Shown: positions 21,442-48,826 of the stretch, in pieces | How positions within the stretch are numbered: position 1 is the stretch's first letter | Layout: each line of letters opens with the position of its first letter | DNA from: Polynucleobacter alcilacus | Lineage (GTDB): Bacteria; Pseudomonadota; Gammaproteobacteria; Burkholderiales; Burkholderiaceae | Reading direction: 5' to 3' | Assembly: GCF_018881545.1 (NCBI RefSeq) | Contig: NZ_JACVQD010000001.1 | Coordinates: 772,039-836,038, forward strand | Length of the DNA: 64,000 nucleotides | Notes under the pieces: model-generated | What the model was told of the DNA's origin: nothing | Databases searched by the model: none | Seen by the model: only the letters and a program-made list of their open reading frames with translations | Program-made: the position numbers and the translations under genes

Positions 21442-22752
21442 TTAATAAGATTTCTTAACCTCATTGAGGGCCTTACCTTGAGGCCCGAAATGCTGATACA
21501 TGATCAAGACCATTGCTAAAAAGACCGTTGTACCAAAACCAATAATGATGAGAGGCAAACTGAGATTTAGCCATAAGAGTATGGAATAGACGAGGAGCAT
21601 GAACAATACTGCCAAATTCTCACTAAAGCCTTGAACAGCAATAGATTGGCCGGTTGCCATCAAGGAATAACCCCGATGTTGTAACAAAGCATTCATTGGC
21701 ACCACAAAATAGCCTGATAACCAGCCTAAGAGTATTAATAAAAAATAGGCGGGGAAATCATTTAGGGTTAATTGGATTGAGTGCATTTGCAAGAGAACGA
21801 TTGGCGGTAAAAGTTCATCGTTATACATTCCCATTAAACAGACTACTAAGCCCATCAGCGCGCCATAAGGCAATACATTAGCTGAATCCTTCAAAGAAAC
21901 TTTACAAGCTGCATAAACAGCTCCCGCAGCAACGCCTATTGCAGAAACAGCCTGTAAAGCAGCGCTCTCCGAGAGGTTCATATGCAAAGCATATTCAGCC
22001 CATTTCAGCATAATGAATTGAAGGGTTGCTCCAGCCCCCCAAAATAGCGTAGTTACAGTTAGTGAGAGCTTACCAAGGCGATCTCGCCACAAGCTCACAA
22101 AACAGGTAGAAAAATCTCGCACTAGATTGCCGCAATGCAAGTTCAATTTTTGATAACAAACTCCCACCTTTAATAGGGGTACGTTGAGTAAGGCAGCTAT
22201 TGCATAGATGGCCGAGATCAAATAAATAGCCAGCGCTGCAAAACGAGGAATATCGCCTCTTATGAAATCTAGATTGAATTGTTGAAAAGCATGATACAGA
22301 AAATCACTAATAAGAAAGCCACCCAATAAGGTGCCAAAAATAATCGAAGCAATAATGAGGCCCTCCATCCAACCATTGGCTGCTACTAACTTATCCGATG
22401 GTAGTAGCTCAGTCAAAATTCCATATTTTGCAGGGGCATATAAGGCTGCACCAATGCCAACGATGCCATACCCCAATAATGGATGTAAGCCAAGAAGCAT
22501 CAGGCCGCACCCGCTAGCTTTAAGCACGTTAGAAATCAACATCACTTGGCCTTTAGGCCTAGAGTCTGCAAAAGCGCCTACAAACGGCGCAAAAAGAACG
22601 TAAGGGATGACAAAAGAAATCTTAAGTAAAGGCGAAACCCAATCGGGCTCTTGCATTGAAACCAGGAGCGCAATCGATACGATCAGTAAGGCGTTATCCG
22701 CTAATGATGATAAAAACTGTGAGAATGCGATCGTATAGAAAATACGATTCAT
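21442..22752 (-). CDS. lplT: LplT-like lysophospholipid transporter (MFS)
   Basis: The 436-residue protein has about 12 spans. The N-terminus FSQFLSSLADNALLIVSIALL and the loop AFADSRPKGQVMLISNVLKASGCGLMLLG followed by GIGAALYAPAKYGILTELLPSDKLVAANGWMEG are typical of LplT. LplT flips lysophospholipids inward for reacylation. In many proteobacteria it is fused to or next to an acyltransferase/acyl-ACP synthetase; here it overlaps a GT4 glycosyltransferase gene by 4 nt instead, suggesting a different lipid context. Confidence 0.88.
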   Translation of the reverse strand: MNRIFYTIAFSQFLSSLADNALLIVSIALLVSMQEPDWVSPLLKISFVIPYVLFAPFVGAFADSRPKGQVMLISNVLKASGCGLMLLGLHPLLGYGIVGIGAALYAPAKYGILTELLPSDKLVAANGWMEGLIIASIIFGTLLGGFLISDFLYHAFQQFNLDFIRGDIPRFAALAIYLISAIYAIAALLNVPLLKVGVCYQKLNLHCGNLVRDFSTCFVSLWRDRLGKLSLTVTTLFWGAGATLQFIMLKWAEYALHMNLSESAALQAVSAIGVAAGAVYAACKVSLKDSANVLPYGALMGLVVCLMGMYNDELLPPIVLLQMHSIQLTLNDFPAYFLLILLGWLSGYFVVPMNALLQHRGYSLMATGQSIAVQGFSENLAVLFMLLVYSILLWLNLSLPLIIIGFGTTVFLAMVLIMYQHFGPQGKALNEVKKSY

Positions 22753-23990
22753 TGCTTAATAAAAATTTTTCTTAAAGCAGGTGATGAAGCCAATTTATCT
22801 TTTAAATGGGAATTGAGTATTAAATCGTGATAGTTATTTTCTAATTTTTTAGTAACTTTATCCCATGAAATTTCTAAGGTAGTTTGCCTTGCATGTGTTC
22901 TCAGATTTTGAATATCACAATTCTCTTTCATGAGCTCAAGGCCTTGATTAACGAATGAGTTGGCCTCATTTGGGTCAGCCAAGAAACCATTGACACCATG
23001 ATCAATAAATTGCCGAGCTGCTGCATAGTCATACGCCAATACAGCCAAGCCACTAGCCATCGCCTCTAGGGTGACATTCCCAAAAGTCTCACTTAGGCTT
23101 GAGAATAAAAATAGATCACCACTCGCATAGTGTGTTGCTAGAGCCTCCCCGGTCTGCACACCTGTAAAGATGCTATTGGGGCAGCTCAACTTCAAAGCCC
23201 CTTTTTGAGGGCCATCACCCACCCAGACCATTTTTAAATTGGGATTGACTTGCAACATTGCCCTAAAAGTATCTACTGTGACTTGGAGATTTTTCTCTGA
23301 TGCAAGTCTGCCAACATACAAGACTACTTTTTGGTGATCTTTTACTCCCCATTGATTTCGTAATTCATGGGAACGTTTTGAGGGATTGAATAATTCCGTA
23401 TCAATTCCTCTTGCCAGCACTCTCAGCCTTTCAAATCCGTGACTCAGTAACTGATTTTTAAGAGCCTGGGTTGGCACCATTGTGAAGTGACTATTGTTAT
23501 GAAAGTAACGCAGATACCTTTGGATCGGGCTTTTGAGACAACTCAAACCGTAATGGGTTGAGTAGGCATCAAAATTGGTGCGGAAATCAGAGCAAACAGG
23601 AATGTTTAATTTTTTAGCTGCCTCTAGAGCCGACCAACCCAAGGGACCTTCAGTAACGATATGGACAAGGCTAGGTCTATCGGTAGACCATTGCTTAATC
23701 AACCTATTTTTTTGCGGGATTCCCATCCGCAATGCACTGTATCCCGGAATAGGAATTCCTACTGTCAGTATTTCTTTGAAATGCGATTCATTTTTGGGTT
23801 TATCTTTTAAACCCTGACGCGGCCGGATGAGAGTAATGTCATGCCCAAGCTCGGCCAAACCCTGTATGAAGCGCGCTATCGTACTAGCTACCCCATTGAC
23901 CTCTGGAGGATATGTCTCCGTAACAATAGCAACTTTAACTGAGGCATTCAGATTGATTTCGCTAGTATTTCCCAGGTTATTTAAAGTCAT
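22749..23990 (-). CDS. GT4 glycosyltransferase, lipid-mannosyl/sulfoquinovosyl-transferase-like
   Basis: The 413-residue GT-B enzyme has N-terminal VAIVTETYPPEVNGVASTIARFIQGLAELGHDITLIRP and VHIVTEGPLGWSALEAAKKLNIPVCSDFRTNFDAYSTHYG. The C-terminal donor site is ETFGNVTLEAMASGLAVLAYDYAAARQFI (E-x7-E). This pattern is close to diacylglycerol glycosyltransferases of the MgtA/SQD2 type that make membrane glycolipids. The acceptor and sugar are inferred, not shown. It is cotranscribed with the LplT-like gene and divergent from 24134. Confidence 0.82.
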   Translation of the reverse strand: MTLNNLGNTSEINLNASVKVAIVTETYPPEVNGVASTIARFIQGLAELGHDITLIRPRQGLKDKPKNESHFKEILTVGIPIPGYSALRMGIPQKNRLIKQWSTDRPSLVHIVTEGPLGWSALEAAKKLNIPVCSDFRTNFDAYSTHYGLSCLKSPIQRYLRYFHNNSHFTMVPTQALKNQLLSHGFERLRVLARGIDTELFNPSKRSHELRNQWGVKDHQKVVLYVGRLASEKNLQVTVDTFRAMLQVNPNLKMVWVGDGPQKGALKLSCPNSIFTGVQTGEALATHYASGDLFLFSSLSETFGNVTLEAMASGLAVLAYDYAAARQFIDHGVNGFLADPNEANSFVNQGLELMKENCDIQNLRTHARQTTLEISWDKVTKKLENNYHDLILNSHLKDKLASSPALRKIFIKQ

Positions 23991-24133
23991 TGCCCATGAG
24001 TATTCTTGAAAAAAATAACAGTTTTATGACAATGCGAATATTTTCTTGACATGAAATTGTCACAAAAAAATTGTAAATATTAGGGACGTTCATATTTGTG
24101 TAATATAAAAACCTAATATTCAGAGGATTAAAA

Positions 24134-24778
24134 TTGATTCAATTTCTTGAAACCCTAAAAAAACAGCGCTGGGATGATCATCGTTACTATCATCACAGCC
24201 GCATCAATCAATCGCTACACTTTGTTAGCGCTCTGAGTTTCTTGACTGCTTACTTTTTACTGTTTACCGACCCTATCGCAGCCTCATTATTGGCTTGGTT
24301 GGTTGCCATGACTACGCGTCAAAGTGGCCACTTCTTCTTTGAGCCCAAAGGATATGATGAGGTGAATAAAGCCACTCATGAATACAAAGAAGAAATCAAA
24401 GTTGGCTATAACCTCAATAGAAAAGTTGTTCTTTTATCGATTTGGGCGGCAATTCCAGTCTTGGTTTATGTTAACCCCCTGTTCTTGCAAAAATTTGTTG
24501 CTTTGAATACCTTCACAGATACCGAAGGTTTTATCCGTCAAACTGGTCTTTTATGGCTTTGGCTGGGTGTTGGTGGCGTGCTTTTCCGCACTTTCCATCT
24601 CTTTTTCATTCATGACGTTCAAGCAGCCCTGGCCTGGATGACAAAAATTCTCACAGACCCATTTCACGATGCAAAAATTTATGCGACCGCCCCACTGTAT
24701 TTATTACGCGGGCAACTCATTGATCCGATGGATCACCTTGAACTCACCGAAGAAAATCTGGGCTCAGTCAACACTTAG
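24134..24778 (+). CDS. Membrane protein resembling Mpo1/DUF962
   Basis: The 214-residue protein has about four spans. HHSRINQSLHFVSALSFL near the N-terminus and TRQSGHFFFEPKGYDEV after the second span resemble the two His motifs (H-x3-N-x3-H and GH-x2-FE) of Mpo1/DUF962. Yeast Mpo1 is a 2-hydroxy-fatty-acid dioxygenase. It starts with TTG behind AGAGGA; no ATG occurs before the motifs. The assignment is tentative, but the motifs and a setting among lipid genes agree. It ends at a strong hairpin. Confidence 0.55.
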   Translation: MIQFLETLKKQRWDDHRYYHHSRINQSLHFVSALSFLTAYFLLFTDPIAASLLAWLVAMTTRQSGHFFFEPKGYDEVNKATHEYKEEIKVGYNLNRKVVLLSIWAAIPVLVYVNPLFLQKFVALNTFTDTEGFIRQTGLLWLWLGVGGVLFRTFHLFFIHDVQAALAWMTKILTDPFHDAKIYATAPLYLLRGQLIDPMDHLELTEENLGSVNT

Positions 24779-24790
24779 TACAGATAGGGC

Positions 24791-24822
24791 AGAGATGCTA
24801 TTTTTTGCTAAATAGCATCTCT
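24791..24822 (+). terminator. Hairpin terminator overlapping the end of the aminotransferase gene
   Basis: AGAGATGCTATTT and AAATAGCATCTCT form a perfect 13-bp stem with a 6-nt loop, followed on the plus strand by TTTAATAATTT. It should end the plus-strand transcript from 24134. The hairpin overlaps the last codons of the convergent gene that stops at 24798. Confidence 0.75.
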
Positions 24823-26447
24823 TTAATAATTTGACGTTTGATCGCTTTATTACTCAGGCTGTTTCCATTCCACCACCAAGCATCTTGTTTCATGGACTGT
24901 GCTGCAGCAATGAAGCGTTCTTGAACGGCTAGCATGTCTGAATCGCTGTAGTTCAGACTGAAAATAAATCTTCCCGTACCAATCCAACTAAGCGCTAGTC
25001 CTTGCTCCTTTAAGTAATACTGAAACATCCAGTTGTAGCGGCTTGGCTCAGTGAAATTGATGGTCCAGATACTCGACATATTTGCGACCCTGACCGGCAA
25101 GTCTAAAGAAATCAGTTGTTCATTCAAACTATTGGCGCGCTGGTTCCAAACTTGGTCTAAATCCACATACATTTTTTTGATTTCGGGGGTTTCTAGTTGT
25201 TCTAGAAATACCTGCATTGCCCCCATCACATAGGGATGTGAGTTAAACGTCCCGCGTGCAAAACAGATGTCGGCAGGTTTTTCATCCCTAAAGCGCTTCA
25301 TTAAATCACTACGTCCGCACACTACGCCTATCGGCAAGCCACCGCCTAAGGTTTTACCGTAGGTCACCATATCGGCCCTTACGCCAAAATATTCTTGGGC
25401 ACCACCCTGAGCCAAACGGAATCCTACAAATACCTCATCAAAAATCAACACAATGCCATTCTGTGTACAGACTTCTCTGAGCTCTTTGAGCCATTTGGTA
25501 TATGCGGCACGATCATAATGCGCAGTACGTGAGCTATCCAATAGAGATGAGTCGCTGGGGGCCCCTTTATTGGGATGTATTGCTTGCAATGGATTTACTA
25601 ATACGCAGGCAATATCTTTCCGCTTGCGCAGTACCCGTAAAGTATCTTGATCCATGTCTTTTAATGTGTAGGTTTCTCTCGGTGGAAGGGGGTTACCTAT
25701 GCCGGGCTGAACATCTTCCCACCAGCCGTGATACGCCCCGTTAAACCGGACTACATGGCTTCGCTTGGTATGGTAGCGAGCTAGGCGTACTGCCTGCATC
25801 ACAGCCTCTGTACCAGACATATGGAAGGAAATTTCATCTAACCCTGAAATAACTTCTAAACGCTTCACATTGTCAGCAACGATGGGGTGATAAAACCCTA
25901 GAACAGGACCAAGCTCAGATACGCGCCTAGCACCCTCTTCAATCGATCTTTTATAAAAATCGTATCCGAGCACATTGACGCCATAGGATCCAGTTAAGTC
26001 ATAAAAAGTATTGCCATCCAAATCAGTCAATGTGACCCCTGATGAAGACTGCATAAAGCTACCTGATTTCAAGTGCTCACTGACAATTTGGCTAAATTGA
26101 AAGGGCACGCGATACCTGCCTGTAAATTGCAAATCAGAGATGTTTTGTGCTGCCTGATTTGTCAAACTCACTGATTTTGCAAATCGCTCTTGATAGATAT
26201 GCGCTAGGCGCATGAAGCCAGCTTCTCTTAAGGAGGCGATATTGTCTGGCGCCCCATCGACCTTAAAAAAGGAATCTCGATTAAAGGAATAAAAAGGAAT
26301 TAAACGGGCTACCCTCTTTGCCATGCGTGAGTGGCCAGCTAATGAAGGGTGCTTGGCCTTAGATAGTTGCAATCTGGTGTAGAGCTTTCTAACTAACCAC
26401 ACTCCCAACCCTGCACCGAATATACTGAATACGATCCAACTATCCAT
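24798..26447 (-). CDS. Membrane-anchored class III aminotransferase (glutamate-1-semialdehyde-aminomutase-like)
   Basis: The 549-residue protein has one N-terminal membrane helix (about 3-20). A linker of about 110 residues is followed by a complete fold-type I class III aminotransferase: GSYGVNVLGYDFY, SGTEAVMQAVRLARYHTKRSHVVRFNGAYHGWW, LIFDEVFVGFR and the PLP lysine in MVTYGKTLGGGLPIG (about residue 366). It is too long and divergent for HemL. The membrane anchor and its divergent Psd-like neighbour suggest a lipid or lipid-headgroup substrate. This is inference. Confidence 0.82.
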   Translation of the reverse strand: MDSWIVFSIFGAGLGVWLVRKLYTRLQLSKAKHPSLAGHSRMAKRVARLIPFYSFNRDSFFKVDGAPDNIASLREAGFMRLAHIYQERFAKSVSLTNQAAQNISDLQFTGRYRVPFQFSQIVSEHLKSGSFMQSSSGVTLTDLDGNTFYDLTGSYGVNVLGYDFYKRSIEEGARRVSELGPVLGFYHPIVADNVKRLEVISGLDEISFHMSGTEAVMQAVRLARYHTKRSHVVRFNGAYHGWWEDVQPGIGNPLPPRETYTLKDMDQDTLRVLRKRKDIACVLVNPLQAIHPNKGAPSDSSLLDSSRTAHYDRAAYTKWLKELREVCTQNGIVLIFDEVFVGFRLAQGGAQEYFGVRADMVTYGKTLGGGLPIGVVCGRSDLMKRFRDEKPADICFARGTFNSHPYVMGAMQVFLEQLETPEIKKMYVDLDQVWNQRANSLNEQLISLDLPVRVANMSSIWTINFTEPSRYNWMFQYYLKEQGLALSWIGTGRFIFSLNYSDSDMLAVQERFIAAAQSMKQDAWWWNGNSLSNKAIKRQIIKEMLFSKK

Positions 26448-26501
26448 AGATACTCCAATGATTTATTCATTACACTTTTACTTCATTTATTTGACATAAT
26501 T

Positions 26502-27392
26502 ATGTCAATGAAAAAAACGATCCAAAACATCCTATCCCAAGAGGATCTCAATTTTCTTCTAACTAACCGCATTCCTCGTAATGCGCTCACTCGCTTTATT
26601 GGCTGGTTTAGCCAAATTGAGAACCCAGTGATTGCTTTTGTCTCCATTCAGGTTTGGAAGTTCTTTTCTGCGCTGGATTTATCAGAAGCGAAAAATCAGC
26701 ACTTTAAAAGTATGCATGCGTGTTTTACACGGGAACTCAAGCCTAACGCTAGACTAATTAATCAAGGCTTAAGTTATCTTGTAAGTCCGTGTGACGCTCT
26801 AATTGGGGCGTTCGGTCAAGTCAGAAATGGAGAAGTTTTTCAAGCCAAAGGCTTTCCTTATGCCTTAGATGATCTGATACCCAACAAAATCTTAGCCAAA
26901 AGCTATGAGGGGTGTGAATACGTAACCTTGCGCCTGACCTCAAGCATGTACCACCGGTTTCATGCGCCAGCTGCCATGCGGATTAGAAAAATCACTTATA
27001 TCTCTGGCGATACTTGGAATGTAAATCCGATCGCACTCAAACGAGTTGAAAGACTGTTTTGTAAAAATGAGAGGGCTGTGATTGAATGTGAAATTGATCA
27101 CGCAGACAAAGAGATGCCGAATGCTACCCTGACTCTGGTGCCTGTAGCAGCCATTCTTGTTGCCAGCATTCGCATGCACTGTATCAATCTACTCTTCCAT
27201 CTACGGTATCAAGGCCCTAATGAAATTGAGTGCAATGTAGCCGTTCATCGTGGTGAAGAGCTAGGCTGGTTTCAACACGGCTCCACTATTATTGTTTTTG
27301 CCCCAAAAAATTATCGATTACTACCAAGCTTAAATCTTGGCGACAATATTCGGATGGGTGAGGCTTTATTTGAAAACACTGCATCAACTTAA
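26502..27392 (+). CDS. psd: Phosphatidylserine decarboxylase family protein
   Basis: The 296-residue protein has SPCDALIGAFGQV (Asp of the self-cleavage triad), SMYHRFHAPAAMRI (His) and WFQHGSTIIVFAP. Cleavage between Gly260 and Ser261 should give the pyruvoyl group. The usual Leu before Gly-Ser-Thr is His here. The membrane-associating N-terminal helix is present. Standard Psd makes phosphatidylethanolamine from phosphatidylserine; this copy may act on that or a related serine lipid. It is divergent from the aminotransferase gene across 54 nt, in a lipid-gene neighbourhood. Confidence 0.85.
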   Translation: MSMKKTIQNILSQEDLNFLLTNRIPRNALTRFIGWFSQIENPVIAFVSIQVWKFFSALDLSEAKNQHFKSMHACFTRELKPNARLINQGLSYLVSPCDALIGAFGQVRNGEVFQAKGFPYALDDLIPNKILAKSYEGCEYVTLRLTSSMYHRFHAPAAMRIRKITYISGDTWNVNPIALKRVERLFCKNERAVIECEIDHADKEMPNATLTLVPVAAILVASIRMHCINLLFHLRYQGPNEIECNVAVHRGEELGWFQHGSTIIVFAPKNYRLLPSLNLGDNIRMGEALFENTAST

Positions 27393-27393
27393 G

Positions 27394-27960
27394 CTATTTA
27401 CAGGCTAAGCTCAGAGTATCTTTGCTGCGCTCCATTCCCTCGGCCATCATTTCAAAACCTCGGCGAATATTATTTCTTAAGAAATACTCGATGATTCCAT
27501 TTGGAATCAGGGAATTAGGCTCGATGATGCTGGAATATCGCACCAGCGCGCCCTTCTCATTGGCTTGTACTCGCCACGTCCCAGAATAGGATTTGTTGTC
27601 GCCTTTAGTCTGAATAAAATTAAGTCCCTGATGTGGGAACTCCGTAAACTCCACTTCTGACCGAAACTGAATCGGGAATAATAAAATTCGCTCCTCGACC
27701 ATTCTATCTACAGTTACCTTATTACCATTCCTTTTGCGCACTTTTGACTCAACAATTCCAGGGATGGTTTTCGTATCCTCATAATCTGTCAAAAAAGTAT
27801 ATGCCTCGCACTGACTCACGGGAGCGATATAGCTGGCCTGCACCTGAAAACCTGCCCCAGATTTTGCTACAGCTACTTCTAGATCATAGGGAGTTAGCTC
27901 AGCAATCGCAAAGCTAGATTCAGAGCCTATCAAGAGGCATAAAAGGAATGCTCGTTTCAT
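27394..27960 (-). CDS. SRPBCC/START-like secreted protein
   Basis: From the ATG at 27960 the 188-residue product has a signal peptide (about 1-20). It then shows the polyketide-cyclase/START pattern: APVSQCEAYTFLTDYEDTKTIPGIVESKVRKRNG, EERILLFPIQFRSEVEF and the C-terminal amphipathic helix IIEYFLRNNIRRGFEMMAEGM. These domains bind hydrophobic ligands. It ends 1 nt from the convergent psd-like gene, so a role in lipid handling is plausible. The frame is open another 42 nt upstream. Confidence 0.75.
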   Translation of the reverse strand: MKRAFLLCLLIGSESSFAIAELTPYDLEVAVAKSGAGFQVQASYIAPVSQCEAYTFLTDYEDTKTIPGIVESKVRKRNGNKVTVDRMVEERILLFPIQFRSEVEFTEFPHQGLNFIQTKGDNKSYSGTWRVQANEKGALVRYSSIIEPNSLIPNGIIEYFLRNNIRRGFEMMAEGMERSKDTLSLACK

Positions 27961-27998
27961 AATAGAAGCTCTCAATCGTAATAATGCATCAGGAATCA

Positions 27999-28241
27999 TC
28001 AATACTCTTCTTCCACATTTAGATCAAGAAATAGGAGTGATTCCGCATCGGCTAACTCCGCACACTCTACTCCATTCATTTGATCATCGAAAGAGAGTTG
28101 CGCAAAACGTTCAGCAGCTAATAAATCATTCTTCTGATAATGATCTAAGGCTAATAACTGATTCCATGCGGCTTTTTGAAAATACTCAGCAGCTCTTCTT
28201 CTTAAATGTATCACCTTGTCATTTAAGTGTTGATCTAGCAT
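27999..28241 (-). CDS. Small helical protein, unknown function
   Basis: From the ATG at 28241, with GGAGAGACAAAG upstream, the product is 80 aa. It is hydrophilic and predicted helical (VIHLRRRAAEYFQKAAWNQL followed by LALDHYQKNDLLAAERFAQL), with a very acidic tail. The pattern resembles a single TPR-like helix pair. I do not recognise it. It precedes the START-like gene on the same strand by 38 nt. Confidence 0.55.
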   Translation of the reverse strand: MLDQHLNDKVIHLRRRAAEYFQKAAWNQLLALDHYQKNDLLAAERFAQLSFDDQMNGVECAELADAESLLFLDLNVEEEY

Positions 28242-28510
28242 CTTTGTCTCTCCATCAGTTTGGCATTGAACTTGACTGTGATGCTCCACCTTTTACATGA
28301 CGTTTATATGAATTTTATCAACCGTCTTGGTCACATTTAAGGCCGATCTATCAAGCCAAAATAGAACAATTTCACTATTTAAAATAAATTAAAATTATTT
28401 CAATTCATGATAGAGATGTCATATTCATTCATTGAAAATGAGATCTACTTATGGGAGATGAAGAGCAATTCTACTCCTTACTGGATACTCTCAGTTTGTT
28501 CTAACAGCCC

Positions 28511-36144: not shown

Positions 36145-37113
36145 TTAGCGCAATCGCTCAACATAAAAGCTTGCTTTTTCAAGCGCGTCCTCAGCATCCA
36201 TGCCAACCATATCTGCCCCAAGATCAGCCACAAGCTCCGGAAATTGATTAAATACGGGACTACCGATGATGACGCCTACCTTAGGATTTTTGGACTTAGC
36301 CTTAATGCTCTTAATTAATTCCTTCAGTTGTGGAAATTGCTCTCGAACACTGGCTGATAAACCGACAACATCGAACCATTCGTTTGCAGCCATGGAGATA
36401 ATGTCTTCCTCGGTGGCAGCCAATTCACCCCATATGCGCCATCCCGCTTTTGCAAAAAATTCAGAGACCATAAAAAGGCCTAAGTTATGTTGGGAGCCAG
36501 GCAATGGCACTAACATAATGCTGGAGCCGGCTTTACCCTGATCAGAATACTGTTGAAAAATGGGGCTTAAGTCATACATTAATTGCTTGATCCGCCAAAG
36601 CGCTATGGTTACCTCTGTAAAGCTAGATTCATCCTCATCCCACATTGTCCCTAATTTTCTTGCCACTGGAGTGAGCAGAAGCAAATAAATATCTTCTAAA
36701 GTAGTTCCAGAGGTATGCATCTCTTTTACGTAGTCAACGGAAATACGAGCATCTTCTTGTAACACTAACTTGGTTAAATCATCCACAGCTTTTTGATCAA
36801 TGATTTGCTTGACTGGCAACAGCGCAGGAATCGATGACTCTAAGTGTTGCTCAATCATCAAAGGAAGAATATTTCCCTCAATGGTTTTCACGAGAGATTC
36901 AAGATACTCACCTTCGGTACAGGCTTTTTCTATTGGATGAGTTTTTTTGTCTTGCTCAAATGTTGATTTTGTGGGCGCATTAGATACTAAGCAGTCCTCC
37001 CACATGTCATTCGACGCTTTGGTCGTCTGTTGTTGATCTAAATTGAAATCGTCACGAGTAGATTTCTTTTTGAGCCCAGTAATGCTCACTAGCCTGGATA
37101 AATTCATGAACAT
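36145..37113 (-). CDS. AerR/PpaA-like B12-binding regulator (copy with N-terminal extension)
   Basis: The 322-residue protein (ATG at 37113; a second ATG lies at 37107) has a disordered N-terminus (about 1-80) and a helical cap, EDARISVDYVKEMHTSGTTLEDIYLLLLTPVARKLGTMWDED. A cobalamin-binding Rossmann domain follows, with VPLPGSQHNLGLFMVSEFFAKAGW and VGVIIGSPVFNQFPELVADLGAD. The canonical D-x-H-x2-G appears as S-Q-H-N-L-G, as in AerR/PpaA, light/B12 antirepressors of CrtJ/PpsR. It precedes hemE and has an FNR-type box about 90-100 nt upstream. It is paralogous to 61182-62009. Confidence 0.8.
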   Translation of the reverse strand: MFMNLSRLVSITGLKKKSTRDDFNLDQQQTTKASNDMWEDCLVSNAPTKSTFEQDKKTHPIEKACTEGEYLESLVKTIEGNILPLMIEQHLESSIPALLPVKQIIDQKAVDDLTKLVLQEDARISVDYVKEMHTSGTTLEDIYLLLLTPVARKLGTMWDEDESSFTEVTIALWRIKQLMYDLSPIFQQYSDQGKAGSSIMLVPLPGSQHNLGLFMVSEFFAKAGWRIWGELAATEEDIISMAANEWFDVVGLSASVREQFPQLKELIKSIKAKSKNPKVGVIIGSPVFNQFPELVADLGADMVGMDAEDALEKASFYVERLR

Positions 37114-37202
37114 CACTTGATCAAGACACGGTCTCAAAAGAGTTTTTTGAAAAATACCGTGGCTGCCTAAGAGCCTCTTTATTGGAATATTTACTTTATA
37201 AA

Positions 37203-37216
37203 TTGATTTAGATCAA
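37203..37216. promoter_or_regulatory. FNR/FnrL-type binding box
   Basis: TTGAT-TTAG-ATCAA matches the FNR consensus TTGAT-N4-ATCAA exactly. It lies 17 nt past the bciB stop and about 90 nt before the AerR-like start. Activation at -41.5 would put the start site near 37168, which has a possible AATAAA -10 at 37183-37178. It is the likely oxygen-responsive control point for aerR-like and hemE. Confidence 0.65.
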
Positions 37217-37233
37217 ATCACAAAGACTTATTT

Positions 37234-38445
37234 CTAGGTGCTTTCCCTAGAGCCTTTAGTTTCATCATTTTGAGGCTCTAAACCATATCTTTTCGTTAGC
37301 CTCCATACATGGTCGGGGACCATATTCTTTATTTTGTGCGGCGCAGTATTTCGTAAATGAACAATAGATTCGATTGCCTTCATCTCAATTCTCGCTTTTG
37401 CGAACTCAAGACCACGAGGTCCAAACCGCGGCATTACCCAGGCAAATATTCCTCTTAAAAAATTTGGCATTCTTTGCAATGGCAACCCGCCGGCTGCTAA
37501 CTCCACATTCTTCATAAAACCCTTTACAGGACTTAAGCGATTACCGGCAGAAGTTACAGGCTCTAAAACAAGCTCTGCCGCAAGTAAGCTCGCTAAACCC
37601 TTTCCTTTTACATTGCGAATAATGACCCACTGCTCGCCTGTGCCTGCCATATACCCAACCGTAATATCAGAAAGTGAATTGACATAGTCAACACACGTCT
37701 TGCAGGTTGTAGGGAAAAAATCTGCAGGTAAATTTGATAGGGGCAGCTTTAAAAAAGGTATTTCTTGTTTTTGGCCATTCTCAAAGCGAATCTCAACGTG
37801 ATAATCCGCTCTAAACTCCAGATAAGAAATCGTTTCCGGCTTTTCGGAAAGTAGGCCTAAGAATTGATGAAAATGTTCGGTAGTCGTGTTATCGGAACAA
37901 GGCGAGCCAATAATCAATAATTTCTCAAAGTCCAATTCTTGTTCGAGTGCTCTTGCAGCATAGACCTGACATGGAATACCCACCATGGCTACTTTTTTAT
38001 ACCCCAGATCTTTTGCTTGCTCAAGGTATTGAATAATTGGGGCATAGCCCATCTTCATACCCCTACATTGCGCCATATCCTGAGATCTCGTCACGATCAC
38101 CGGAACTGGTTTCCAGCGATCATTAGGGTCTGAGCTCATGGTAATCACCGCCTCAACAATCCCCTGCTCCAGTAACACCTCACACAGTCGCGTGATAATT
38201 CCGGTCCACTGAGCACCCTTTAATGGCGTCTTTAACCTGGCCCTAAACATTTCTAAATAGGGGCCAAAGAAGATCTCGTCAGAACCATCTTGAACACGCT
38301 CTCTACCGTGAGCTAATGTTTCAAATTTAGGGTAATTAGGCTGAATAAACTGACAGGCAGTTGCGCATCGTTTGGGCTGCGTAGTTCGAGATACGCCGCA
38401 ATCGGTACATAAATCACGAAATGGGGCAATCTCAATTGACTCCAC
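37234..38445 (-). CDS. bciB: Ferredoxin-dependent divinyl (proto)chlorophyllide 8-vinyl reductase BciB
   Basis: The 403-residue protein of the F420-hydrogenase beta-subunit family has N-terminal cysteine clusters CTDCGVS and KRCATACQ, a central MVGIPCQVYAARALEQEL and SPCSDNTTTEHFHQFL, and CKTCVDYVNSLSDITVGYM. These supply Fe-S and flavin sites. BciB reduces the C8 vinyl group of chlorophyll precursors. The identification fits the family and the position among bch genes. It is 13 nt downstream of dxs. Confidence 0.88.
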   Translation of the reverse strand: MESIEIAPFRDLCTDCGVSRTTQPKRCATACQFIQPNYPKFETLAHGRERVQDGSDEIFFGPYLEMFRARLKTPLKGAQWTGIITRLCEVLLEQGIVEAVITMSSDPNDRWKPVPVIVTRSQDMAQCRGMKMGYAPIIQYLEQAKDLGYKKVAMVGIPCQVYAARALEQELDFEKLLIIGSPCSDNTTTEHFHQFLGLLSEKPETISYLEFRADYHVEIRFENGQKQEIPFLKLPLSNLPADFFPTTCKTCVDYVNSLSDITVGYMAGTGEQWVIIRNVKGKGLASLLAAELVLEPVTSAGNRLSPVKGFMKNVELAAGGLPLQRMPNFLRGIFAWVMPRFGPRGLEFAKARIEMKAIESIVHLRNTAPHKIKNMVPDHVWRLTKRYGLEPQNDETKGSREST

Positions 38446-38458
38446 TATTCATCAGGCC

Positions 38459-40345
38459 TTATAAAAAACGGGCCAAAACTCTTTGTTTAATCTTTTCCTT
38501 AGACAGACCATAGCTATCTAAAAGTAAATTAAGCTCACCATGCTCTACATACTCATCTGGCAGTCCCACTAATAAAGATTGAATATGGACATTGTTATCC
38601 GATAGCACTTCTAAACAAGCACTACCAGCGCCGCCCTTAATCGCGCTATCTTCAACAAAAACAAGTCCATCATGAGTGCTTGCAATTTCTAGCAATAATT
38701 TCTCATCCAAAGGCTTCACAAAGCGCATATCTACCACGGTGGCGTTGATTTCTTGCGCTACGGCAAGAGCGCTGTAGAGTAATGGCCCAAAACAAATAAA
38801 AGCAATTCTTTTCTTTAGAGGCGAAGTCACCTCTATTTTGCGTACTACGAGCCCTTTACCAATTGGCAATGTTTCTAAGGGCTTGCCTACTGTCTCTAGT
38901 CCTGCTCCAGAACCTCGTGGATAACGGACTGCTGCTGGACCATTGTGTTTAAAGGCGGTAGTTAGCATTGCTCGGCATTCTTGCTCGTTTGAAGGCGTCA
39001 TGAGTAATAAGTTTGGCAAGCAGCGCAAGAATGCAATATCAAATACTCCCGCATGGGTTGCTCCATCCGCACCCACCATACCTGCTCGATCAATAGCAAA
39101 TACGATCGGCAAGTTTTGTAAAGTCACATCATGTATCAACTGGTCATAGCCGCGCTGCAAGAAAGTTGAATAGATCGCAACTACTGGTTTAAGCCCTTCG
39201 CATGCAATGCCAGCTGCAAAGGTAACGGCGTGTTGCTCCGCTATCCCCACATCGTGATATCGATCCGGAAAGCGTTTTTCAAACTCTACTAATCCCGAGC
39301 CCTCGCGCATGGCAGGAGTAATGGCGATCAAGCGCTCATCCACCTCTGCCATATTGCATAACCACTCACCAAATACTTGGGTGTAGGTTTTCTTAGCCAC
39401 TGACTTTGTCACAATCCCTACTAACGGGTCAAATGGACTTGGACCATGATAGGCAATTGGGTCTTGCTCTGCTAATGAATATCCTTTGCCTTTTTTAGTA
39501 ATGATATGAAGGAACTGGGGTCCCTCCGTTTGAGCAAGGGTTTTAATGTTTTGTAGGGTCGAAATTAATACTTCTAAATTATGGCCATCAATTGGACCGT
39601 AATAGTCAAACCCAAACTCTTCAAAAATAGTTGCAGGACCTACCATTCCCTTAGCATGCCCTTCTAATCTTTTTGCAAATTCGCGAATGGGTGGCGCTAC
39701 AGAGAGCACTTTATCAATACCCCGTTTAGTGGCCGCGTACATAGAACCAGAAATTAACTTCACTAGATAGCGGTTCAGCGCGCCTACTGCTGGTGAAATT
39801 GACATCTCGTTGTCATTCAGAATCACAATAAGCGGTACTTTTTTATTCACGCCAGCATTATTCATCGCTTCAAATGCCATGCCAGCACTCATTGCACCAT
39901 CACCAATAATGGCTACTACATTACGTTTCTCATTTTTTGTCTTAGCAGCGACCGCCATCCCCAATGCTGCCGAAATACTGGTCGATGAATGAGCCGTTCC
40001 AAATGCGTCGTATTCACTTTCACTACGCTTAGGAAACCCTGAAATACCGCCGAATTGCCTTAGACCCGACATCGCATCCCTGCGACCTGTAAGTACTTTA
40101 TGAGCGTAGCTTTGGTGGCCCACATCCCAAACTAAACGGTCATAAGGCGTATCAAAGACATAATGCAATGCGATGGCGAGCTCTACAGTTCCCAAGTTAG
40201 ATGAAAGATGTCCTCCAGTGCTTGAAACCGAGCTCAATATAAAGTTTCGCAACTCTCGCGCAATCTGGGGAAGCTTAGATACCTCATGCTCCCTCAAGTC
40301 TTGCGGGTTAGATATGGTTTCAAGGAGGTTAGTCATTTTGAGCAT
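38459..40345 (-). CDS. dxs: 1-deoxy-D-xylulose-5-phosphate synthase
   Basis: The 628-residue thiamine-diphosphate enzyme has [17 protein letters not shown], the TPP motif [20 protein letters not shown]...ILNDNEMSI, the [23 protein letters not shown] segment and a transketolase-C end. It catalyses the first step of the MEP isoprenoid pathway, supplying phytyl/geranylgeranyl tails and carotenoids. The start at 40345 has a GAGGTGGCT ribosome site; the open frame extends upstream into hemA. The gene follows hemA after 7 nt. Confidence 0.95.
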
Positions 40346-40352
40346 AGCCACC

Positions 40353-41654
40353 TCATTTCGATGAGTAGATTTTAGATATGATTTTTTTATATTCTTCCAA
40401 ATTGGCATCGGAAGACTGCTTCAAAGCATGTATTGGGGCATGCATAAACTTATTCGCAAGTGCTATTGCCATATGTGAAAGTACAACCATAGGGTCATCA
40501 CCATTTGCAAGTCTTCTGCTTGCTTTTTCTAGCTCAATCTTTTGATATTGCTCCCCTACATCTTGGATTGACTTAATGATAGGAACAACCGCTCTCTTCC
40601 CTAGGGTTTCATAAAACTCCACAACCCCTTTTTCAATAATTTTCTCTGCTTCGCCAATAGATTCAAGGCGGTTTGCTTTTCCAGCATTGACTATTTCACC
40701 TAGATCATCAACAGAGTAAAGGTAAGCATTTTTTAAACTCTTAATTTCTGGTTCAAAATCTCTTGGCACGGCTAAGTCGATCAAAACTAAAGGGCGAGAC
40801 TGACGAGTCTTGAGTGCTGTTTTAACCATTCCCATACCTACAATCGGTAAGGAACTCGCCGTACAAGAAACAATCACGTCGTATTGACTTAAGTGCTGCG
40901 GTAAATCTGCTAAAGGAAAGACTTCTGTCTGCAAATTTTGGCTAGCAAATGTCTGAATTAATGCACTACCTCGATCAATTGTTCGATTAGAGATAGCAAT
41001 CTTTTTGGGGTTCTTGCTGGCAAAATGATTTGCGCAAAGACCAATCATCTCACCGGCACCAATAAATAAAACATTGCAATCACTAATTTTTCCAAAGATG
41101 CGCTCAACTAACTTGATAGAGGCGCCCGCCATCGATACTGAATGGGCCCCAATTTTCGTATTACCTCGAACCACTTTGGCTACTGAAAATGTTTTATCAA
41201 ATAAAGGCTTCAAGTAAGTACCTAATGTACCTACTTGATTAGCATTTTCGATTGCCTTTTTCATTTGCCCTAGGATTTGGGTTTCTCCTAGAACCATAGA
41301 ATCTAAACCACTACCCACCCTGAAGGCATGCTTGACTGCATCGCTTTCCTTTGCCGAATAGATATAGGGGCGTAATTCGTTTTTATGAACATTGTTTTGA
41401 GCGGCCAACCATTCAAAAGCGCGGCTTTCTAAATGATGATCCTCATACTCAACATCATTGGCAGCACAATAGATTTCCATCCGATTACAGGTTGACAGAA
41501 TAGCCACCTCTGGCTGATTCTCGGCATCTTCTCTTTGTAGATATTTACGTAAATCTATTAAAGAGTCGTGCAAAACCTCAGGCGCAACCGCCACACTCTC
41601 CCGAATATCAATAGGAGCTGTATGGTGATTGACACCAAGGTTGAGCAATTTCAT
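40353..41654 (-). CDS. hemA: Glutamyl-tRNA reductase
   Basis: The protein has 433 residues from the ATG at 41654 ([18 protein letters not shown]). The catalytic Cys lies in [12 protein letters not shown], the NADPH-binding site is [32 protein letters not shown], and the C-terminal dimerisation helix is present. It makes glutamate-1-semialdehyde, the first committed step of C5-type tetrapyrrole synthesis. In-frame ATG at 41663 and GTG at 41678 are alternatives. It overlaps or nearly abuts tspO. Placement in the PGC ties ALA supply to pigment synthesis. Confidence 0.94.
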
Positions 41655-41667
41655 ACTTGACATATGT

Positions 41668-42153
41668 CTAGTAAGCACCTGGATTCAAAACAAGCGTATC
41701 CCAATTTAGGCACATCGCAATCGTGACCCAAATGAGATATGGCAGCATGAGATACGCAGCAATTCTCCGTATTGGCCACATCACTAAAATAATGGCAAGT
41801 ACAGAACCCCACAGAAAAAAAGCCTCTACTAACGACCAATCAGGATGTTGCATGCGGAAATAAAACATACTCCAAAGTACATTTAAAAAACCATTTAGCA
41901 CAAAAAGAAAGGTGATTTTATTTTTCTGCGATGGTGTTGGGTTGCTATTAAAAGAAATCATCCATGCCAATGCAGACAAAATAAAAATAATGGTCCAAAT
42001 GACTCCAAATGACCAATCTGGTGGTTTCCAAGGAGGCTGAATCAAGGAAAAGTACCAAGGGCCCAGCTTTGTGGCCATACCACCCAAGATGGATGTAGCA
42101 ACCATCCAAGCTGCAATCATCCAGAGGTACTTATGTTGAAAAAAGAGCTTCAT
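41668..42153 (-). CDS. tspO: Tryptophan-rich sensory protein TspO/MBR
   Basis: The 161-residue protein has five membrane spans: KLGPWYFSLIQPPWKPPDWSFGVIWTIIFILSALAW, then NVLWSMFYFRMQHPDWSLVEAFFLW and VTIAMCLNWDTLVLNP. The Trp pattern and the WKPPDW motif are diagnostic. In Rhodobacter TspO adjusts photosynthesis gene expression and porphyrin traffic in response to oxygen. It is coupled to bchP by a 4-nt overlap, as in other PGCs. Confidence 0.94.
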   Translation of the reverse strand: MKLFFQHKYLWMIAAWMVATSILGGMATKLGPWYFSLIQPPWKPPDWSFGVIWTIIFILSALAWMISFNSNPTPSQKNKITFLFVLNGFLNVLWSMFYFRMQHPDWSLVEAFFLWGSVLAIILVMWPIRRIAAYLMLPYLIWVTIAMCLNWDTLVLNPGAY

Positions 42154-43355
42154 ACCTTAGCCAAGCCTAAAAGATGCCCCATATCTTTGATAAAGATTTT
42201 GAAGTGTGCGAGAGGCTTTTTACGAACTAACTTTTTATTCATATAAGACTCAAAGGTCAATCTTTGAACGTCTTTGTCTTCGCACATCTTGACAAAGCTC
42301 TCACGTCTTTTATCGGTTGAATACCAAAAATATTGCATGATGCCTAAGACTAAAAAGGTCATGCGGTGTTCTTTCATAAAACGCTTACGGGCCAACTGGA
42401 GTTTTGCGGGATCCTTGCTCTCGATAAACTCAGCAACGGCTTCACCAGCCAATTGACCGCCGAGCATGGCGTAATATATGCCCTCACCTGAAGCCGGAGC
42501 AACAACACCTGCAGCATCGCCAGCCAAAACTACTTGCTGCCCATCATCCCATTTCTTCAAGGGCTTCATCGGTAATGGTGCCCCTTCATGGCGAATGAGT
42601 TCCGCTCCCTCTAAGCCGATATCTGCGCGCAGCTTGGCAACTGCATTTCTAAGAGAGAAGCCTTTATCTGCACTTCCCGTGCCAATACTAATAGTGTCGC
42701 CATGTGGAAATACCCAACCATAAAAATCTGGGGATACTGGCTTTTGATATAAGACATCACAGCGACTGCTATCAAATGAAAGTGGTTTATCAGATGGAGT
42801 TTTAATAATTTCGTGATAAGCAAACACATAATTTGCTTCAGCACATCCTTTTACACCTGCGCTTCTACCAACTTGTGATTTAGCGCCATCAGCACCTACC
42901 ACTGCTTTTGCCAATACACTCTTCACCGCGCCCTGGTCGCCATCAAGCGCTCCTCGTGTGCGATAGTAAATGCGGACGTTGGCACCTTCTCGCTGAAGGG
43001 TTTCAAATAGTCCATCCTCACGAACTGCTCCTGCTGCAACTGCGCGCTTCCTTAGCCATTCATCAAACTGGGCCCGATCAACCATTCCTACAAAACCATT
43101 TTCAATAGGGATGTCTACCGTTTTTCCTAGAGGCGAAACCATCCGAGCTGATTTTGCTTTAGCAACCAACAACTCATCTGGAATCTGAAAATCTTTGATT
43201 AGACGTGGTGGTATTGCTCCACCACAGGGTTTAATGCGTCCGCGCTTATCTAATAGCAAGACATGCTTGCCCTTTTGAGCAAGCGTTTGAGCTGCAGTAG
43301 CACCTGCGGGTCCACCGCCAACGACTACTGCATCATAAATAAATTCTGTTGTCAT
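42150..43355 (-). CDS. bchP: Geranylgeranyl diphosphate/geranylgeranyl-bacteriochlorophyll reductase BchP
   Basis: The 401-residue flavoprotein has the FAD motif DAVVVGGGPAGATAAQTLAQKGKHVLLLDKRG. KPCGGAIPPRLI and VVLAGDAAGVVAPASGEGIYYAMLGGQLAGEAV are characteristic of ChlP/BchP. It saturates the geranylgeranyl tail to phytyl. It sits between tspO (4-nt overlap) and the bch2/pucC-family transporter (3-nt gap), the usual bchG-bch2-bchP order. Confidence 0.95.
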   Translation of the reverse strand: MTTEFIYDAVVVGGGPAGATAAQTLAQKGKHVLLLDKRGRIKPCGGAIPPRLIKDFQIPDELLVAKAKSARMVSPLGKTVDIPIENGFVGMVDRAQFDEWLRKRAVAAGAVREDGLFETLQREGANVRIYYRTRGALDGDQGAVKSVLAKAVVGADGAKSQVGRSAGVKGCAEANYVFAYHEIIKTPSDKPLSFDSSRCDVLYQKPVSPDFYGWVFPHGDTISIGTGSADKGFSLRNAVAKLRADIGLEGAELIRHEGAPLPMKPLKKWDDGQQVVLAGDAAGVVAPASGEGIYYAMLGGQLAGEAVAEFIESKDPAKLQLARKRFMKEHRMTFLVLGIMQYFWYSTDKRRESFVKMCEDKDVQRLTFESYMNKKLVRKKPLAHFKIFIKDMGHLLGLAKV

Positions 43356-43358
43356 GTT

Positions 43359-44687
43359 TTACCTCGCTCCACTAGCGCTACTTTGTTTACTTTCAACCAG
43401 AGATGCCATATAAGCAGAAGCAATAAATAGAATTGCTTCAATAAAAAAGACTGAAGAATATGCCCAGGCTGGATTGGTAAAAATAGAGCGTGCAAGATCA
43501 CTTGCTCCAGCTCCCAAAAGACCACCCAAGCCAAAAGCAATCGCTTGCGCTCCTCCCCATAAACCTATTCGGACCCCCTCTTTGCCCCCTCCACCAACAA
43601 CCGCTAAGCGCATCATGGATGCGATTGCTGCAATAGAGAAGGCGCCGTTGGCAAGACCCAAAATGAATACATTCTGTTTTAGTGGCCAGTCTCCCTCGAC
43701 GATTCCAGCAATCACCAAACCAAACATTGCCAACGCTGAGGCCAGGCAGCCATAGATCATCCAAGATCTGAGTGAGCCAAAATAACGCCTTAGTCTGCTA
43801 GAACCACAAACTGCCACCAAAAGCATGCCAGTGAGCACTCCAGAGTGTTGAATCCCTGATAGGCTGGTTGTCTCACCTATAGAGTATTTAAAAATCATTC
43901 CGGCAAACGGCTCCAAAATTAAATCCTGTGCACTGAACGCAAACATCGACAGAAAAATAAAGATGGTAAATTTTCTAGTGTCTGGATCAGCCAGAATGTC
44001 GGTCAATGCTGTTCTAAAAGGAATTTTTTGAGCAGCACCAACACGTTTATTTTCTAGCGCATCGCCCTCAAGCCGATATAAAGCCAACACAGCAATCATG
44101 CAGGCAGCAGATGAAATAATTCCTGAAATCAGGATGACCTTCTCTGGCGAATAGGGGTCTAAATACTTTCCTGCAATACCACTAGTCAGAGCAAATCCAA
44201 AAATCATCATGAGCCAAACTGTTGTAGCCGCAGCCGCCCTTCTCTCATCACTTACCCCCTTAGCGAGCAGAGCTAGCAATGAAGTCCCGCTGATACTAAC
44301 GCCAATACCAATCAAGAAGAAAGCGACGATTGCTGCTGCAATACCAAGCATTAAATGAAAGCCCATCAGGGTTGTAGCGATTGCAGCACCAAAGCCCCCT
44401 AAGGCCAGCAAACTGATGCCACCGATAATCCATGGCGTTCTTTTGCCGCCAATATCAGACTCAAATCCCATACGAGGCCTGATGACCTGAACAAAGTAAT
44501 GAATTGCGACCAATAAGCCAGGAAGGCTTGCAGGCAAAGCCAACTCAACAACCATAATGCGATTTAAGGTAGAAGTTGTCATGACAACAATGGCCCCGAT
44601 AGCTGCTTGCACCAAGCCCAGACGCACAATACTGATCCACCCAAATGTGGATGATTGAAAGAGCGGCTGGGTCAAGGTGATACTCAT
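43359..44687 (-). CDS. bch2: BCD/PucC-family MFS transporter between bchG and bchP
   Basis: The 442-residue protein has 12 predicted spans. N-terminal VRLGLVQAAIGAIVVMTTSTLNRIMVVELALPASLPGLLVAIHYFVQVIRPRMGFESDIGGKRTPWI is typical of the PucC/LhaA family. It is the member found between bchG and bchP in most PGCs (often called bch2 or orf428), with a presumed role in pigment delivery or light-harvesting assembly. It is related to lhaA at 50732. It overlaps bchG by 4 nt. Confidence 0.9.
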   Translation of the reverse strand: MSITLTQPLFQSSTFGWISIVRLGLVQAAIGAIVVMTTSTLNRIMVVELALPASLPGLLVAIHYFVQVIRPRMGFESDIGGKRTPWIIGGISLLALGGFGAAIATTLMGFHLMLGIAAAIVAFFLIGIGVSISGTSLLALLAKGVSDERRAAAATTVWLMMIFGFALTSGIAGKYLDPYSPEKVILISGIISSAACMIAVLALYRLEGDALENKRVGAAQKIPFRTALTDILADPDTRKFTIFIFLSMFAFSAQDLILEPFAGMIFKYSIGETTSLSGIQHSGVLTGMLLVAVCGSSRLRRYFGSLRSWMIYGCLASALAMFGLVIAGIVEGDWPLKQNVFILGLANGAFSIAAIASMMRLAVVGGGGKEGVRIGLWGGAQAIAFGLGGLLGAGASDLARSIFTNPAWAYSSVFFIEAILFIASAYMASLVESKQSSASGAR

Positions 44688-45568: not shown

Positions 45569-45575
45569 GTAAATG

Positions 45576-45604
45576 ATTTTGTCATTGACATATTAAAGTG
45601 TCAA
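45576..45604 (-). promoter_or_regulatory. bchG promoter (extended -10, consensus -35)
   Basis: On the minus strand TTGACA (45604-45599) is followed after 17 nt by CAAAAT (45581-45576), preceded by TGA (extended -10 TG). Only 7 nt (CATTTAC) separate the -10 from the bchG ATG, so transcription should begin at or very near the A of the start codon. The -35 is part of the adjacent palindrome. Confidence 0.6.
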
Positions 45605-45620
45605 TTAAATTTGACACTTT
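45595..45620. promoter_or_regulatory. PpsR/CrtJ operator, perfect palindrome
   Basis: The core TGTCAATTAAATTTGACA (45599-45616) fits the PpsR consensus TGT-N12-ACA in its best form TGTCA-N8-TGACA. The symmetry extends to 10-bp arms, AAAGTGTCAA and TTGACACTTT, around TTAAAT. It overlaps the bchG -35. The same hairpin could end the ispH transcript: on the minus strand an A tract precedes it and CTTTAAT follows. Both roles are possible. Confidence 0.7.
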
Positions 45621-45679
45621 TTTAGCCTGTTTTTACCAGTGAAAACCCTTATATATCAAGGGAAAGGGGGGATTTAACC

Positions 45680-46621: not shown

Positions 46622-46634
46622 GAGGTACTGTTAC

Positions 46635-47393: not shown

Positions 47394-47399
47394 AATGGC

Positions 47400-48476: not shown

Positions 48477-48826
48477 ACTTTTACTCCTTCATGCAAAATA
48501 ATAGGGGTAGCCTTTTTCATAGGAGCCGGCCTAGGGTATTTCTTAGCCTTACTAAATCGAGTAGTCGAAAAGCTCACCTCATAAAGCATAGTGACCTCTA
48601 GTCTTGCTGTGAGATACACCCATAATCGCGAAAAAATGCCCGCCTTAGAAACCGTAGCAGTTCGATCGTAACTGAGCACTTCGCCAAAATTGATGTCAAC
48701 GATGGGATCATGAACTAAGACCTGGTCTCCTGGTCCAACTTGCACTCCACTCAAATCAACATGAGCATAAAGAAATTCAGAGGTATTGGACATATCGACA
48801 TGACAAGGCACTGTTTGTTTTGACAT
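48473..48826 (-). CDS. Conserved small protein between puhC and acsF
   Basis: The 117-residue protein is mostly beta strand: [46 protein letters not shown], then [21 protein letters not shown]. No signal peptide or clear membrane helix. A small orf at this place occurs in other betaproteobacterial PGCs, but I cannot name a function. The 2-nt gap to puhC and 4-nt overlap with acsF make it part of the operon; a role in reaction-centre assembly or cyclase function is plausible. Confidence 0.7.

Follow-up and report, generated by a model that had tools for sequence, protein, structure and literature searches.

Gene content of the locus

The window analyzed here, a 64,000-nucleotide stretch of Polynucleobacter alcilacus contig NZ_JACVQD010000001.1, carries a group of lipid-related genes at positions 21442 to 28289 (Table 1). 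Window genes were checked as open reading frames and scanned with Pfam and NCBIfam. The six open reading frames listed in a preliminary description of this DNA, from the LplT-like transporter to the START-like protein, were all verified, as were the 4-nucleotide overlap of the LplT and GT4 genes and the 54-nucleotide gap (26448-26501) between the aminotransferase (AT) and Psd-like genes. Four of them, encoding the GT4 glycosyltransferase, the Mpo1-like protein, AT and the Psd-like enzyme, are a real, collinear and co-inherited module. Its core is AT, Psd-like and Mpo1-like, usually with GT4.

Table 1. Features of the lipid gene locus, in window coordinates
Feature	Position	Strand	Remarks
LplT-like	21442..22752	-	Transporter of the LplT family; divergent second copy in the genome; accessory
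GT4 glycosyltransferase	22749..23990	-	PF00534 and PF13439 passed
Pho-box-like site TTGTCATAAAACTGTTAT	24015..24032	-	24 nucleotides upstream of GT4; 2/14 mismatches
Weaker Pho-box-like site TTGACATGAAATTGTCAC facing Mpo1-like	24046..24063	+	4/14 mismatches; weak alone
Mpo1-like (DUF962) membrane protein, 214 residues	24134..24778	+	Core member; PF06127 below threshold
Class III (HemL/MycA-like) aminotransferase (AT) with N-terminal helix	24798..26447	-	PF00202; core member
Perfect 18-nucleotide inverted repeat TTGACATAATTATGTCAA, also a weak Pho-box-like site	26491..26508		In AT/Psd gap
Psd-like pyruvoyl decarboxylase	26502..27392 (start may be 26508)	+	PF02666, TIGR00163; core member
START/SRPBCC-like	27394..28002	-	PF03364 and PF10604 passed; lineage-specific accessory
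96-residue protein overlapping START	27999..28289	-	Lineage-specific; 5/80 best wider loci

NCBIfam model NF008397 scores the window LplT at 511.3 bits against a cut-off of 297, and this family assignment predicts a transporter of lysophospholipids. The Psd-like protein passes TIGR00163 (141.2 bits; cut-off, 111.75) and PF02666 (178.3 bits; cut-off, 22), and the START-like protein passes PF03364 with 30.1 bits (cut-off, 23.4). The top NCBIfam models for GT4 are lipid glycosyltransferases, and both stay below their cut-offs (NF053787, 155.7 bits of 480; NF049988, 133.4 of 400). None of the 25 listed NCBIfam models (of 67) reaches its own cut-off with AT; HemL, the best of these models, misses both its cut-offs (183.8 versus 398 and 181.1 versus 527.3). 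The window Mpo1-like protein scores 21.9 bits against PF06127, short of the gathering score of 24, and 40 of 41 Mpo1-like relatives match this family at E ≤ 0.01.

Co-inheritance and distribution of the module

GT4 and Mpo1-like are carried by the same 13 of 121 Polynucleobacter genomes (E thresholds: GT4, 1e-50; AT, 1e-40; Psd-like, 1e-20; Mpo1-like, 1e-10). AT and Psd-like each occur in 12 of the 121, and all carriers are among those 13 module genomes. AT is absent only from G196, where the module is divided between contigs C17 and C34, and Psd-like only from G174, where AT runs into the contig end. No match to any of the four genes was obtained in the other 108 genomes at these thresholds. 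Gene order is constant in 12 Polynucleobacter module stretches as far as their contigs go, and the stretches lie in several chromosomal contexts. By these co-occurrence counts, the grouping of the genes is not chance.

Beyond the genus, one genome per species was scanned and the best 80 of at least 572 confirmed AT relatives were used. These 80 loci belong to Betaproteobacteria, including Sulfuricella, Propionivibrio, Dechloromonas, Paucibacter, Ideonella, Zoogloea and Variovorax, and to Bradyrhizobium, Nitrobacter, Methylocapsa, Acidisphaera and others. AT has a Psd-like neighbor in 80/80 and a Mpo1-like neighbor in 78/80. GT4 lies beside AT in 73 loci, at 44% identity or more in 36 and at 26-35% in the 37 that have other kinds of GT4; the L078 hit is some 6.5 kb distant. 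For the wider loci, gene starts were called with a simple codon-usage program and may be inaccurate. Of 397 genomes in a draw across the phylum, 27 carry AT (54-100% identity), and these represent 11 of the 222 genera sampled. Of the 27 carriers, 16 were fetched as further loci; 15 of these have Psd-like and 15 have Mpo1-like, only a 4.4-kb contig lacking them. Co-conservation, which the preliminary description had named as the check on all six genes, is strong for GT4, Mpo1-like, AT and Psd-like, both within the genus and among many further Alpha- and Betaproteobacteria.

Three arrangements of the core genes were found. In the first, Psd-like and AT are divergent and Mpo1-like is convergent. 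The second combines a PmtA-like gene with Mpo1-like, AT and Psd-like, with or without GT4. In the third, all genes of an operon point the same way: AT, a gene for a long protein (~890-960 residues; GT4 at its C-terminus), Psd-like and Mpo1-like. Pairwise divergences of the three core genes AT, Psd-like and Mpo1-like are correlated (Spearman 0.79, 0.60 and 0.63; label-shuffled maximum, 0.30) across 49 dereplicated loci of 87 usable, a correlation that common descent would also yield. The genes are sporadic, in the genus as in the phylum, and AT (1e-60) was found in only two of 150 genomes drawn from the family, both Polynucleobacter. This distribution and the differing chromosomal contexts are what independent lipid genes would give if they drifted and traveled together without a single pathway. 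Such a loose cluster is very improbable given the union of AT, Psd-like and Mpo1-like across three arrangements, their correlated divergence and the Pho boxes that they have in common (see below).

Accessory genes are more variable. The preliminary description suggested that all six genes could form a lipid pathway or a membrane remodeling system; four of them are supported as a module, and a single six-gene pathway is not supported. Of the 12 Polynucleobacter stretches, all but a 3.6-kb contig have START (11 of 12), and in the best wider loci it was matched in 5/80, all Polynucleobacter-type; there, it was sought by similarity to the window protein only. LplT is a recurrent accessory, found in 16/80 wider loci. 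An LplT match exists in 118 of the 121 genus genomes, and the copy in the module is a second, divergent one; the other copy in the window's genome (G000:C1:278609) is 58% identical to it. In 10 of the 13 module genomes, the module LplT is intact or truncated by nothing but a contig end; G248 has a stop-containing fragment, G204 has a 105-residue fragment, and none was found at the G211 locus. The 96-residue protein is also present in 5/80 loci, and a GDPD-family gene in 3/80.

A methyltransferase adjoins Mpo1-like in 32/80 best loci, which are the alphaproteobacterial ones; a PmtA-like gene is present in 6 of the 16 fetched phylum loci. The one tested (L090) has PmtA NF045882 as its top NCBIfam model with 153.2 bits, missing the cut-off of 390. 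Bradyrhizobium Pmt enzymes are said to have been described by Hacker et al. in 2008, and the PmtA-like neighbor may have a name there. A metallophosphoesterase, PlcP-like by resemblance, is present in 9/80 best loci.

PhoB boxes at module promoters

PMC3465305 gives CTGTCAT-A(AT)A(TA)-CTGT(CA)A(CT) as the PhoB consensus and CTGTCATAAAACTGTCAT as the site at E. coli pstS. Sites were scored over the 14 positions of the pattern CTGTCAT-N4-CTGTCAT, and a match was a site with ≤3 mismatches. The GT4/Mpo1 intergenic regions contain a match in 11 of 12 Polynucleobacter, the window included; in 3 of these 11, the site (1-2 mismatches) is at a different offset. The module site is the sole exact match in the window's genome to the shortened pattern TGTCATNNNNCTGTYA, which at ≤1 mismatch gives 15 hits there, 12 inside predicted genes (reversed control, 8).

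Among 96 AT loci, 85 have a divergent Psd-like neighbor and 89 a callable Mpo1-like gene. The AT/Psd intergenic region holds a box in 43/85 against a Markov-shuffle expectation of 1.1, and the 300 nucleotides upstream of Mpo1-like hold one in 37/89 against 1.65. Among 505 other upstream regions taken from these loci, 19 have a box; only two of the 505 are within 1 mismatch, and one of the two precedes the PlcP-like gene in L078. Counted by clades (AT linked at 82% identity), boxes occur in 15/44 for AT/Psd and 23/46 upstream of Mpo1-like; 150 permuted decoy motifs average 1.2 and 2.5, respectively. The real clade count was reached by 0/150 permuted motifs at AT/Psd and by 1/150 at Mpo1-like. 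Bradyrhizobium boxes such as CTGTCATGAATCTGTCAG lie between AT and Psd-like and Paucibacter-type boxes such as CTGTCATCGAACTGTTAT lie upstream of Mpo1-like; therefore, the box is at different promoters of one module depending on clade. With a box that is conserved in the genus and enriched elsewhere, the window module promoter is a likely member of the PhoB regulon. These boxes back the hunch in the preliminary description that phosphate limitation would be relevant.

The same description gave AT and Psd-like a shared divergent promoter region. The 54-nucleotide gap was found as described. Sigma-70-like sites in the region did not outnumber those in shuffled sequence (13 found, 17.1 expected), and the promoter and terminator scan gave no excess. 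The inverted repeat TTGACATAATTATGTCAA extends over the earliest candidate start codon of Psd-like and may be bound by some regulator that is not PhoB; scored as a Pho box, it has 4/14 mismatches on either strand.

Catalytic residues and folds of the core enzymes

The Psd-like residues D98, H151, H154 and H259-G260-S261-T262 are conserved in 94/94 sequences, as is the motif FxHGST that contains the last four. The GST is presumably the self-cleavage site as in Psd, and the D/H residues are taken to have their Psd roles. In ordinary Psd, the residue before GST is usually L, and in the Psd-like protein it is H. The window's genome holds another, short Psd, a 222-residue open frame.

A true phosphatidylserine decarboxylase would pass TIGR00163 and keep the GST cleavage site, as the Psd-like protein does. 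AT would then interconvert phosphatidylserine and its keto analogue in a starvation-induced salvage or alternative route to phosphatidylethanolamine (PE), continued to phosphatidylcholine (PC) by the PmtA-like neighbor present in 32/80 best loci, and no new lipid class would arise. This phospholipid route is unlikely. The genome already has its short Psd, FxHGST in 94/94 marks a separate subfamily, no pss gene was seen beside Psd-like within the window, and phospholipid synthesis spares no phosphate although the boxes indicate phosphate starvation.

AT residues H240, D337 and K365 are conserved in 97/97. The predicted AT model has a predicted local distance difference test (pLDDT) score of 87, with 41 of 44 diverse homologues used (L106, L123 and L143 dropped). 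By sequence and predicted fold, the nearest solved relative is 6kfm, the mycosubtilin synthase aminotransferase domain, followed by HemL. The mycosubtilin domain aminates a β-ketoacyl chain, which makes a lipid-like keto substrate plausible for AT. The N-terminal helix spans residues 2-31 in the model and its best 19-residue hydrophobicity mean is 1.6, a borderline value that 39 of 97 homologues reach, a count lowered in part by unreliable called start codons. A membrane anchor on AT, as proposed in the preliminary description, is plausible.

Mpo1-like residues D14, D15, H16, H20, H29, H66, E70 and D75 are conserved in 41/41. Comparison of the Mpo1-like model (pLDDT 89.5) with solved structures gave no convincing match: Foldseek returned none below E = 1.7 and the best Z in a further comparison was 4.9. 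By the family name, the substrate of yeast Mpo1 is a 2-hydroxy fatty acid. Together with the β-ketoacyl substrate of the nearest solved relative of AT, this would suit an alternative in which AT, Mpo1-like and Psd-like act on α- or β-oxidized acyl chains to make a long-chain amine or amino-acyl lipid, maybe glycosylated by GT4. The top score of the Psd-like protein is for a decarboxylase of glycerophospholipid headgroups, and the PmtA-like neighbor suggests that the amine is on a headgroup. An acyl-chain route is accordingly a good deal less probable than decarboxylation of phosphatidylserine.

A proposed phosphate-starvation pathway

The locus is best explained as a Polynucleobacter copy of a widespread, sporadically distributed lipid-remodeling module, carried by many bacteria of water and soil, for phosphate starvation with a glycolipid arm and an amine-lipid arm, a reading to which we assign a probability of about one half. 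Phosphate starvation would lead PhoB to turn the module on, and phospholipids would be replaced through the two arms. In the first arm, GT4 would glycosylate diacylglycerol. The diacylglycerol may stem from phospholipid breakdown, because some copies adjoin a PlcP-like or GDPD gene or have a GT4 fused to a PHP-like domain. In the second arm, AT would act at the membrane to aminate a keto-lipid or keto-acid headgroup and the Psd-like pyruvoyl enzyme would remove the α-carboxylate to leave the amine. Mpo1-like may contribute an oxygen-dependent step on an α-hydroxy acid or acyl chain. The substrate, the order of the steps and the Mpo1-like reaction are inferred. In alphaproteobacteria, the amine would be N-methylated by the PmtA-like enzyme. 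The product would be an amine lipid in place of PE or, when methylated, PC. This surrogate is most likely phosphorus-free, because making additional phospholipid would not spare phosphate. The exchange would free lyso-lipids, to be recycled or flipped by LplT.

Such a module accounts for the regulation, for GT4 and the lyso-lipid transporter, and for the phosphodiesterases nearby. An amine lipid as what the core makes or converts would fit a decarboxylase whose family acts on an α-amino acid, an aminotransferase and, in alphaproteobacteria, an N-methyltransferase. The lipid context of the best 80 loci (LplT, 16; PmtA-like, 32; PlcP-like, 9; GDPD, 3) is consistent with remodeling, as are the conserved catalytic residues and the β-ketoacyl aminotransferase domain nearest to AT. 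A more specific version is put forward tentatively: a PhoB-controlled relay of a membrane-bound AT, a pyruvoyl decarboxylase and a DUF962 oxygenase on a lipid-bound substrate, giving a phosphorus-free amine lipid that replaces PE or PC during phosphate starvation in bacteria lacking BtaA, the known betaine-lipid enzyme, and that carries a free amine in betaproteobacteria and an N-methylated one in alphaproteobacteria.

Several observations weigh against the remodeling module. No box at ≤3 mismatches is present in 29/44 clades for AT/Psd or in 23/46 upstream of Mpo1-like, and one decoy of the 150 beat the real motif upstream of Mpo1-like, at 41 loci. The f42 and f49 copies have only sites with 4-6 mismatches. 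Upstream of AT in the one-direction operons, where the region upstream of Mpo1-like is operon interior, 2/7 reach 3 mismatches. Box-like sites are not in excess over the whole window (4 found, 6 expected), so the argument for the window box rests on its position and conservation. Inspection by eye recognized no gene of the pst or pho regulon downstream of the other hits to the shortened pattern in the window's own genome. The TIGR00163 match favors ordinary phosphatidylserine as the Psd-like substrate, and the Mpo1 label is below threshold for the window protein. In the 397 phylum genomes, 27 AT carriers and 33 BtaA carriers have zero overlap, which is not significant (p = 0.15).

Neighboring genes and variant loci

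Some module copies have unusual partners. The long GT4 proteins of L145-L148, L150 and L151 (e.g. L147:3677-6355) show N-terminal PHP-like metal motifs by eye. Four copies were scanned and their N-terminal half matched no Pfam family over cut-off; the one copy searched had no solved relative for this half. These proteins are possibly a joined phosphoesterase-glycosyltransferase. In Methylocapsa, an acyltransferase resembling OlsF/GlsA below cut-off (L071:7054-8019) adjoins Psd-like. The Sulfuricella LplT (L059:6408-8485) overlaps Psd-like in the same direction, and its position unlike that in other loci suggests repeated recruitment of LplT. Within Polynucleobacter, a GDPD-family gene lies 3' of the module LplT in L041, L042 and L045 (e.g. 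L041:4570-5787; Pfam on L041 only), and a second START-like protein lies downstream of the LplT or GT4 end in L048-L050 (e.g. L048:4844-5434). The window START-like protein is, as judged by eye, probably exported; the 96-residue protein that overlaps it matched no Pfam or NCBIfam family. Loci L065, L104, L106 and L075 come from metagenome-assembled genomes labeled, for example, Bordetella parapertussis or Chitinophaga pinensis; their modules resemble freshwater betaproteobacterial ones, and these labels may be mistaken.

A bacteriochlorophyll and photosynthesis cluster recognized by eye occupies window positions 36145-63463, with a BchL-type gene at 52863-53774. A bchL gene is present in 44 of 121 genus genomes, in 10 of 13 module genomes versus 34 of 108 others (p = 0.002). 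A link between module and photosynthesis was rejected: the near-complete module genomes G033 and G166 have no bchL, and elsewhere the module is distant from bchL. The third module genome without bchL, G196, is 80% complete. The association is treated as probable clade structure. A recent island was also rejected, the module genes having 39-45% G+C, like the window's 43%. Compared with window positions 36146-52922, G194 (L159-L161), the closest bchL relative without AT, has the photosynthesis genes in common and a different flank; therefore, the photosynthesis cluster too sits at varying places in the genus. No empty site was seen in the fetched G194 stretch, as only the photosynthesis genes are shared.

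Comparison with known systems

Where phosphate is scarce in water or soil, bacteria able to exchange their phospholipids for other lipids are favored; to our knowledge, few such pathways have known genes. The module is present in ~7% of sampled Pseudomonadota (27/397) and is common among the Bradyrhizobium matches listed. Some of the unknown lipids in environmental lipidomes could come from it, and it offers a direct gene-to-lipid test. Searches of open-access PubMed Central (PMC) full text, which leaves most subscription papers outside its coverage, listed no description of the module, and a search there for DUF962 with bacteria gave only an expression-table entry.

Phosphate-starvation clusters of the plcP-agt and plcP-btaAB types are already known (PMC4796936). 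Like plcP-agt, the module has Pho boxes and a GT4-type lipid glycosyltransferase, with a PlcP-like gene in 9/80 best loci; unlike it, the module has a core of AT, Psd-like and Mpo1-like, which are not named in the available part of PMC4796936. Among the open reading frames of window positions 17-33 kb, judged partly by eye, no PlcP-like gene lies beside the window copy. BtaAB would share the phosphate-starvation role with the module and, with its alphaproteobacterial version, an N-methyltransferase that would act on a lipid amine. The enzymes of the module differ from BtaAB, and BtaA (PF11899) was found in 0/20 module genomes.

The core enzymes resemble known families and depart from each. The Psd-like enzyme is over the Psd family cut-offs (PF02666 and TIGR00163) with D/H/H and GST kept, and is unlike Psd in its FxHGST motif, its tie to AT and Mpo1-like and the second short Psd in the genome. 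AT shares the class III fold and pyridoxal phosphate residues with HemL and the mycosubtilin synthase domain, whereas its N-terminal helix and ~100 extra residues before the fold set it apart. The His/Asp/Glu-rich N-terminal part of Mpo1-like fits the Mpo1 profile in 40/41 relatives, whereas the window protein is below the gathering score and has 214 residues to the 95 positions of the profile. The type of regulation is shared with known clusters and the core enzymes are not, and there is a fair chance that the module encodes a new lipid pathway.

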